DNA of 64,000 bases, from the NCBI GenBank assembly GCA_003024175.1, contig MDYQ01000089.1:32468-96467 (forward strand), written 5' to 3'. Shown in pieces: positions 11,892 through 14,293 of the stretch. The stretch is from Planoprotostelium fungivorum. Lineage: Eukaryota > Evosea > Variosea > Cavosteliida > Cavosteliaceae. Each line of letters begins with the position of its first letter. The first letter of the stretch is position 1. Made by a program: the position numbers and the translations under genes. The notes under the pieces are model-generated. The model did not search any database. It saw nothing but the letters and a program-made list of their open reading frames with translations, and was not told the origin of the DNA.

Positions 11892-12817
11892 AGAACAGAA
11901 GAAATGTTTGAGATAAAGACAAGATGAGATGGCGTGCTTGCTTGTGTGTTGTCTGATGTCGTGCGGCCCAAGCGATGAATCACCTTTTTAAAAAAGTGTG
12001 TTAAGAAGACGAGTGGATCCATGTTGATTTTGCATTATAGTAGCGCGTGCTAAAGAAAGGTAAATATTCCGTGGGCTGCACAATAATCAGAGACGAAACA
12101 TCACATCACCGATCGAAGATGAATGGAACGACACAGCGAAGATTCCACGATCGAACCCAAAAACGTTTCAGCCGTTGGCTGCATAAAATTGGCCGGCTCT
12201 GCTCATGGTCGCCACAGTGATTGATTGCATTGCAAAGAGCAACTGAGATGATCTGATCTCATCTGCCATGAAGCTCGTGCGATGCACCAGGTCAAACGAC
12301 GAGAGTACGATATTCTGGAAAATGGTCTATTTCTCGTATTTGTGTTGTAAAAAGAGGTGCGCGCGCCAAAAAAAATTTCATTTTCAAAAAAAGTCCGAGC
12401 GCGGCAATACGCCACCCCAACCGCATGGTCTATCTTCTTTCCACCTCGAATCCTTTTAGATCAATGTATGATCAATATAGCATAAACATCAATCTATCTA
12501 TATCTTTCCACTTACGAGAATGCTCTTCCATTTTCCATCGACCTCTCCTCTTTAGACCCTCAACCACTTCCAATCGATGAGTAAGACCCTTTGAATCCTT
12601 CCTATCCTTTCCTCTCTTCGAATCAGATGCATTTATCAAATCGATTATCATAGTTACCATGTGGTCACGAAGACCTTCTGAACCCTCCCTACACTCTTTC
12701 TAACGCTAATGCAGGTTAATCCGGGCCGATTTCGAAGCGGAGGGCAATTGTTCGCCGCCCACAATTATTGTCGACGGTATTAACGGCTAGTCGACGCTGC
12801 GGGACACCCCAGGAAGC
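11892..12817. other. Non-coding stretch upstream of U2
   Basis: About 0.9 kb between the GRAM-protein stop and U2. Only short chance ORFs occur. The last ~100 nt before U2 presumably contain its promoter; a GC-rich stretch with the near-inverted pair gcaattgt / acaatta lies around 12751-12770, but I cannot name a proximal sequence element. Confidence 0.4.
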
Positions 12818-13085
12818 ATCTTCTCGGCTTTTTAAAGCTTAGATCAAGGTAGGCCCCTTTCTATTTCGATCATCATCATCATACATCATCACCCAAACTC
12901 GTCTAATATCGCCGCAGTGTAGTATCTGTTCTTATCAGTTTAGTCGACTGATAGCCCTGGGTACTCCAGGGCATCCGACTAAATTAATTTTTCTCTCGGG
13001 TGAGAGGATCAACACCGGAGCTTGCGAAGGTGCCTCTTACACGGATGAATTCAGCATTGCACTGAAGCTGACTTTCGTCCACCGT
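12818..13085 (+). ncRNA. U2: U2 spliceosomal snRNA, interrupted by an intron
   Basis: The 5' part reads ATCTTCTCGGC ... AGATCAAG (12818-12848). After a 69-nt insertion it continues TGTAGTATCTGTTCTTATCAG at 12918, which joined gives the universal U2 5' domain including the branch-point recognition sequence GTAGTA. Stem IIa (TCAGTTTAGTCGACTGA), stem IIb (CCCTGG GTACT CCAGGG), an Sm-like site (AATTTTTC at about 12987), stem III (CTCTCGGGTGAGAG), a CACC...GGTG stem around GGAGCTTG, and a stem IV with a CATTGCA loop closed by TTCAG/CTGAA follow in the right order. The CATTGCA loop resembles the U2B'' binding loop. The intact downstream structures argue for a functional gene. Role: base-pairs with the intron branch site in the pre-spliceosome. 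The 3' end is approximate. Confidence 0.9.
12849..12917 (+). other. mRNA-type intron inside the U2 snRNA gene
   Basis: This 69-nt insertion begins gtaggcc and ends gccgcag, with a branch-site-like tctaat about 13-16 nt before the acceptor. It is similar in size to protein-gene introns here. Removing it restores a gapless U2 5' domain, AGATCAAG|TGTAGTA. Confidence 0.85.
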
Positions 13086-14293
13086 TCAAATAATCAAAAG
13101 ATACAAAAATATAAGAAAATCGTCTGAAAACGATTCAGCGGCAGAAACAACGAGGAAAAACACTCGGAGTACGAGAAGTGAGTCTGATCGAGATGAAGTG
13201 ACCGACAACAGACCAAGGATCGATACGAAGACTGAGAGGTGAGTGATGATCGACATGGCATGACAAAGGAGCGTGCATCGTGTTAAAGACCGACGTGAAA
13301 ATCTTTGCATGAACGAGGATATGTGTCGTGGCCGGGAGGCAGCATGAGTGTAGCGATCACCGAATGCGATGATCGAAGCGATGGAATTGCACATCACGGC
13401 CTAGAGATAATAAAGGATTCCCTTTCCACCATTGTGCGATAAATCGTTATTCGATATTGAAGGATATTTGCTCAACTTTTGAGTCCAAGTCTGATGTGGT
13501 GCCATGCATTCGTGACATCCATCCAATACGATCGGTGAATGTAGTGTGCTCGATTCGTGTCCTCGTTCCATATGATGTTACACGTGATGATGACTCGATG
13601 AACTCCTTTGCCCTTCAGTAGATCAATGTTGGGTTCTACTTTCATCCACGAACGACACCACGATCTCCGTCATCACTGGTTGCATCTCATTGATCGTCCC
13701 TTAAACAGAGATACCGTAGGTCGAAGTTCAGCGACCAGAATCTGGCTTCATTGCAGACGATCGACATCATTGATGCACCTGCCATCACTGTTTCATTCGT
13801 CTTGTGGATACCAAAAAGCTACGATACGATGGCTTCCTGCGTGGTCGCCCACCGCGGTACTAGCATCGCCCATGTTTGCTTACCTTACGAGTTCGGAATG
13901 GGATCGTGGGTGTTCAAGCAGGTATGATCGTAACTGTTGAGTCTCTCAACATCGCTAACACATACGCAAAGCGGGTCAATCAGTTTCACAAACTGAAGTC
14001 TCCTGTGTAACGAATATTGAAGCACATATGAACGAATAGCGTGATCTATTCAATCTACTCAACGAAAGAGGAGGTCGTAACTGAAGACTCTCGACATCGT
14101 CAACGCGAAGTTGGTAAACAGTTGAGCAACAGTTGAGCATTTCAGTAGATGGCTTATGATTCGTAGTAGCGATGCAGACCGAACGAATAGCAAAGAGTTA
14201 AACTCGAGAGGATCACAAGGAAGTAACACAAGAAACAAAGACCTAAGATTAAGGTTGCATTTATCGCATCCATCACGATACTCGCGGTCGCAC
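13086..14293. other. Non-coding stretch between U2 and RPL3
   Basis: About 1.2 kb with no recognisable gene. A hydrophobic leftward ORF at 13086-13397 and a rightward one at 13608-13940 lack domains and a clear start context. The final ~360 nt, next to the RPL3 stop, contain a degenerate direct repeat of about 145 nt: GTAACTG...TCTC at ~13929 and ~14079, and gaacgaatagc at ~14031 and ~14174. Confidence 0.4.

Follow-up and report, generated by a model that had tools for sequence, protein, structure and literature searches.

The U2 snRNA gene that spans 12818 to ~13083 on the + strand of the window (by which we mean the whole stretch of 64,000 nucleotides that was analysed) is interrupted by a 69-nt insert with the features of a spliceosomal intron, and it is one of nine U2 loci in the same genome that carry an insert at the identical point. 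Our preferred explanation, to which we assign a probability of about 0.9, is that the nine inserts are mRNA-type introns that would be removed by the major spliceosome to give ordinary U2, with six intronless loci supplying U2 without splicing. From the sequence, we infer that the insert-bearing genes are transcribed, that their transcripts are spliced and that the product is used in the spliceosome.

In the window copy (L022) the insert separates AGATCAAG from TGTAGTATCTG and occupies 12849..12917 (+ strand, GTAGGC...CAG), which confirms the claim of an earlier note on this DNA that 69 nt split U2 just before GTAGTA. Exon 1 comprises 31 nt at 12818..12848 (+); its 5' end is inferred, and it is identical in all nine insert-bearing copies. 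Exon 2 follows at 12918..13083 (+), as indicated by the Rfam U2 match, the fold and the pair counts, with an approximate 3' end. Within it lie the branch-recognition GTAGTA (12919-12924, +), an Sm-like AATTTTT found by eye (12986-12992, +) and the 3' stem-loops (+). The predicted branch site of the intron, CTAAT at 12903..12907 (+) with the branch A at 12906, follows the CTRAY pattern of all nine inserts. The Rfam match to this copy covers 12908-13087 and reaches 77.4 bits, where the gathering score is 46; because the insert interrupts the 5' domain, the match begins within the insert and the 5' domain is misplaced. The ends of the insert are ambiguous over three registers, since AG closes both exon 1 and the insert, and one register gives GT..AG. 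A DUSE-like snRNA promoter box, CCCACAAT, is found upstream at 12758..12765 (+), with its CCAYAAT match at 12759-12765, 59 nt before the RNA start, and a possible 3' box, CAAAAGA, lies at 13095..13101 (+). Counted by eye, CAAAAGA follows 13 of the 15 U2 copies in the genome, the exceptions being L020, which has GAAAGA, and the first L019 copy, which is cut by N.

Searching the whole genome (36.9 Mb, 471 contigs) returned 15 U2 matches, 14 of them above the Rfam cut-off of 46 bits and one partial, at the locus cut by N; as scoring covered 46 of 645 first-look candidates, more divergent U2 copies may have been missed. Six loci are free of an insert (class A: L009-L013 and L020), and nine carry an insert of 65-69 nt, in every case one nucleotide before the branch-recognition GTAGTA (class B: L014-L018, two in L019, L021 and the window copy, L022). 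Eight of the nine class B copies are complete, and the first L019 copy meets N in exon 2. The idea that a single U2 gene is affected must therefore be given up in favour of nine loci. The genome-wide check for a second, intronless U2 found six loci of this kind, intact ones among them, which is half of what the earlier note had said would refute its reading. GTAGTATCTG is kept in all 15 loci. In a pattern search of the genome, TAGATCAAG was found within 30 bases of TGTAGTAT in five places, all class A; L020 has a variant first word and so was not expected in this count. L020 is also the most divergent class A copy, with the lowest within-class identity of 79% in exon 2.

The inserts fall into three types, the first comprising those of L014 and L016-L019, the second that of L015 and the third those of L021 and the window copy. 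They have diverged widely, with identities as low as 38% in a multiple alignment of all nine, and sequence conservation among class B copies ends at the predicted splice points. Despite this drift the splice marks are retained. Eight of nine inserts begin with GT and one with GC (L021), the donors being GTAGGC, GTGGGC, GTACGG, GTAGGG and GCACGC; a G at +5, a terminal AG, and a CTRAY motif, either CTGAC or CTAAT, whose A lies 12 bases from the insert end occur in all nine. Among 524,850 random intervals of insert lengths, GT, +5 G, CTRAY (its A placed 9-25 bases before the end) and AG coincide at a frequency of 5.1e-5, which rises to 1.5e-4 when three registers are allowed. In five of five pairs tested, the inserts align better than every one of 1000 shuffles, so that all class B inserts likely share a single origin, with the caveat that shared CATC repeats add to the alignment scores. 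The L021 insert belongs with that of the window copy (94% identity) and the upstream flank of this locus resembles, by eye, that of L018, a mosaic such as might arise after recombination or gene conversion.

For comparison with protein-gene introns of the same genome, we used ten introns from exon gaps of myosin-head genes, resolved by hand from reading frame and GT-AG and hence GT-AG by choice; they represent 10 of 11 gaps (L065 was left out) in four genes, one of which contributes seven. These introns are 40-124 nt long, two of them 71 nt, a range within which the U2 inserts fall with their 65-69 nt. Seven of ten start with GTG, nine end with CAG and eight have YTNA with the A 10-13 bases from the end; a strict CTRAY at a fitting distance is present in 1/10, as against 9/9 of the U2 inserts. 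TCATC occurs 44 times per kb in the U2 inserts, 17 times in the myosin introns (where nine of the ten occurrences sit in one intron) and 4.3 times per strand in a sample of 264 kb. An ab initio search for introns in 264 kb proved noisy and was not used as proof; its first pass gave 74 candidates with a median length of 107.5 nt and a weak donor consensus. An A at +4 is present in 51% of this first set and in 75% of a second set, a circular figure given that a donor matrix was used for selection, and by eye in none of the nine U2 inserts, two of which have G at +3. Judged by sequence, the donors of the U2 inserts do not look as strong as the GTGAG-like donors usual in these noisy sets. These apparently weak donors, the GC start of L021 and the rarity of strict CTRAY in the myosin set count against the intron reading.

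The existence of intact intronless loci raises the question of whether the nine class B loci are disabled copies and the other six alone work. The GC donor of L021 and the class B copy that meets N could be read in this way, yet dead copies would be expected to drift in their exons as well as in their inserts, and here the exons are almost unchanged. Pairwise comparison of the eight complete class B copies gives at most three differences in 197 exon positions, only four positions vary overall, and the window copy and L014 have 0/197 exon differences with inserts that are ~42% identical. Gene conversion could account for part of this exon likeness. In 15/15 U2 loci, including all nine of class B, a CCAYAAT box has its first base 57-59 nt ahead of the RNA start, and the retention of splice marks within drifting inserts likewise argues against decay. 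Class B RNA differs from class A RNA in the stem-II and stem-III regions, and in our predicted fold the two classes are set apart by compensated changes. Of the 47 predicted pairs, nine differ between the class A copy L009 and the class B copy L014, four on both sides and five on one side, with none broken; the consensus fold came from 11 distinct joined RNAs and was predicted on the same alignment that was used for these counts. L020 breaks or loses some predicted pairs. Taken together, we regard loss of function across class B as improbable, and the earlier description, of an intron of spliceosomal type in a U2 gene that is otherwise intact and not an evident pseudogene, agrees with the intron marks of the nine inserts, the frozen exons and the promoter box.

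Two further readings accept the class B genes but give the insert another nature or another fate, and both appear less plausible still. Signals of the U12 type consist of the donor RTATCCTT and the branch TCCTTAAC. The genome does contain one U12 gene, and removal of a real intron by the minor (U12) spliceosome would avoid any self-dependence; none of the nine inserts, inspected by eye, has this donor and branch, and we give this route very little weight. The least credible of the alternatives, to which we attach next to no probability, is that a U2-targeting retrotransposon such as Utopia or Keno left the insert behind as a remnant. Elements of this kind are described in U2 genes, including those of Acanthamoeba (PMC4640811). 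However, the U2 sequence downstream of Utopia is there said to begin at nucleotide 39 (PMC4640811), whereas here U2 resumes at nucleotide 32 from the inferred start. The inserts are moreover all 65-69 nt long and there is no target duplication beyond AG at the insertion point. Used as queries against the genome, the window insert gave two matches and the L018 insert six, all at U2 loci and none elsewhere, in a search that took these two types (and not that of L015) as queries and skipped simple repeats and very common words. Reverse splicing, which the earlier note suggested as the origin of the intron, is thus a conjecture for which the two queried insert types show no source copy outside U2. 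The insert-bearing U2 pattern had no match in bacterial, archaeal or viral contig sets, a result that is uninformative on related amoebae.

If the inserts are mRNA-type introns, as we favour, pre-U2 would be transcribed from the class B gene's own snRNA promoter, U1 would bind the donor after AAG, and an already mature U2 snRNP would bind CTRAY. The major spliceosome would then excise the insert and join the 31-nt exon 1 to exon 2 to give ordinary U2, and intronless class A U2 would be made without a splicing step. The 5' region of U2 contains a U6-pairing part followed by the branch-recognition sequence; as the insert parts these two regions, RNA that retains it should not work. The earlier proposal that U2 maturation needs pre-existing U2 thus stands in part. 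Class B genes would indeed need splicing, but with class A able to supply U2 the circle in which U2 needs U2 is not strict, and the supply of U2 as a whole need not depend on it. Class B output would be expected to track splicing capacity. It is conceivable, although we think it rather unlikely, that the two classes form a self-regulating pair in which intronless U2 primes the system and class B amplifies or senses splicing capacity, perhaps with a role or life stage of its own given that its RNA differs in stems II and III.

Genes for spliceosomal RNAs seldom have introns, and the named cases in the sources cited here are fungal. The closest likeness is to Rhodotorula hasegawae, whose U2 snRNA gene is cited in PMC2586383 as carrying an mRNA-type intron (Takahashi et al. 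1993, Mol Cell Biol). Rhodotorula is a fungus; the present case comes from a probable amoeba, in which nine loci with diverged introns stand alongside six intronless U2 loci. The Rhodotorula intron reportedly also lies near the branch-recognition sequence. Introns in U6 snRNA are described from Schizosaccharomyces pombe and other fungi (PMC8917221, PMC5832005); these concern a different snRNA, a polymerase III product, and the full U6 gene here has no insert. Fungal U3 snoRNA genes provide a further parallel, with spliceosomal introns in a structured RNA and, according to PMC5832005, intronless and intron-bearing copies side by side in eight genomes. U3, however, lies outside the spliceosome, so no self-dependence arises there. 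Our literature search, with most subscription papers outside its scope, found no report of a U2 intron outside fungi, and provisionally this would be the first. A U2 intron one nucleotide from the branch-recognition sequence bears on how introns spread, for example by insertion into the RNAs of an active spliceosome, and the presence of both kinds of U2 in one genome makes the dependence of a spliceosome part on its own product testable.

Among the snRNAs searched (U1, U2, U4, U5, U6 and U12), inserts are confined to U2. The matches to U1 (6), U4 (3), U5 (6), U12 (1) and the full U6 gene spanned their models with no excess length, and thus no insert; two of the six U1 matches lie just below the Rfam cut-off. 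CCAYAAT is found 57-63 nt upstream of 6/6 U1, 6/6 U5, 2/3 U4 and 1/1 U12 matches and of the full U6 copy, the U6 count leaving aside a degenerate copy and a fragment. The box, at about -58, resembles the DUSE of dictyostelids, an element that PMC7919456 places ~60 nt ahead of many ncRNA genes, and this likeness makes the amoebozoan origin proposed in the earlier note plausible. The genome may be that of Protostelium aurantium, for which Planoprotostelium fungivorum is the name used in the deposit (PMC10639083). The U4 copy without the box (L034) may, on sequence, be a dead copy. The U6 site at G000:C74:56400-56602 (L029, L030) holds the full gene with the degenerate copy three bases on, and the U6 fragment is at C448.

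The U1 5' ends are of two kinds, ATACTTACCTG in two of six (L023, L027) and ATACTCACCTG in the other four (L024, L025, L026, L028). Pairing with GTG donors, which start seven of the ten myosin introns, would be better for the second kind, and co-adaptation of U1 5' ends and donor sites is possible. Finally, a 5S rRNA gene lies at 13816-13935 of the window, ~0.7 kb downstream of the U2 gene, and another is found downstream of the L007 U2 copy (L007 2329-2448); these represent two of the nine U2 loci analysed with at least 1.5 kb of flank.
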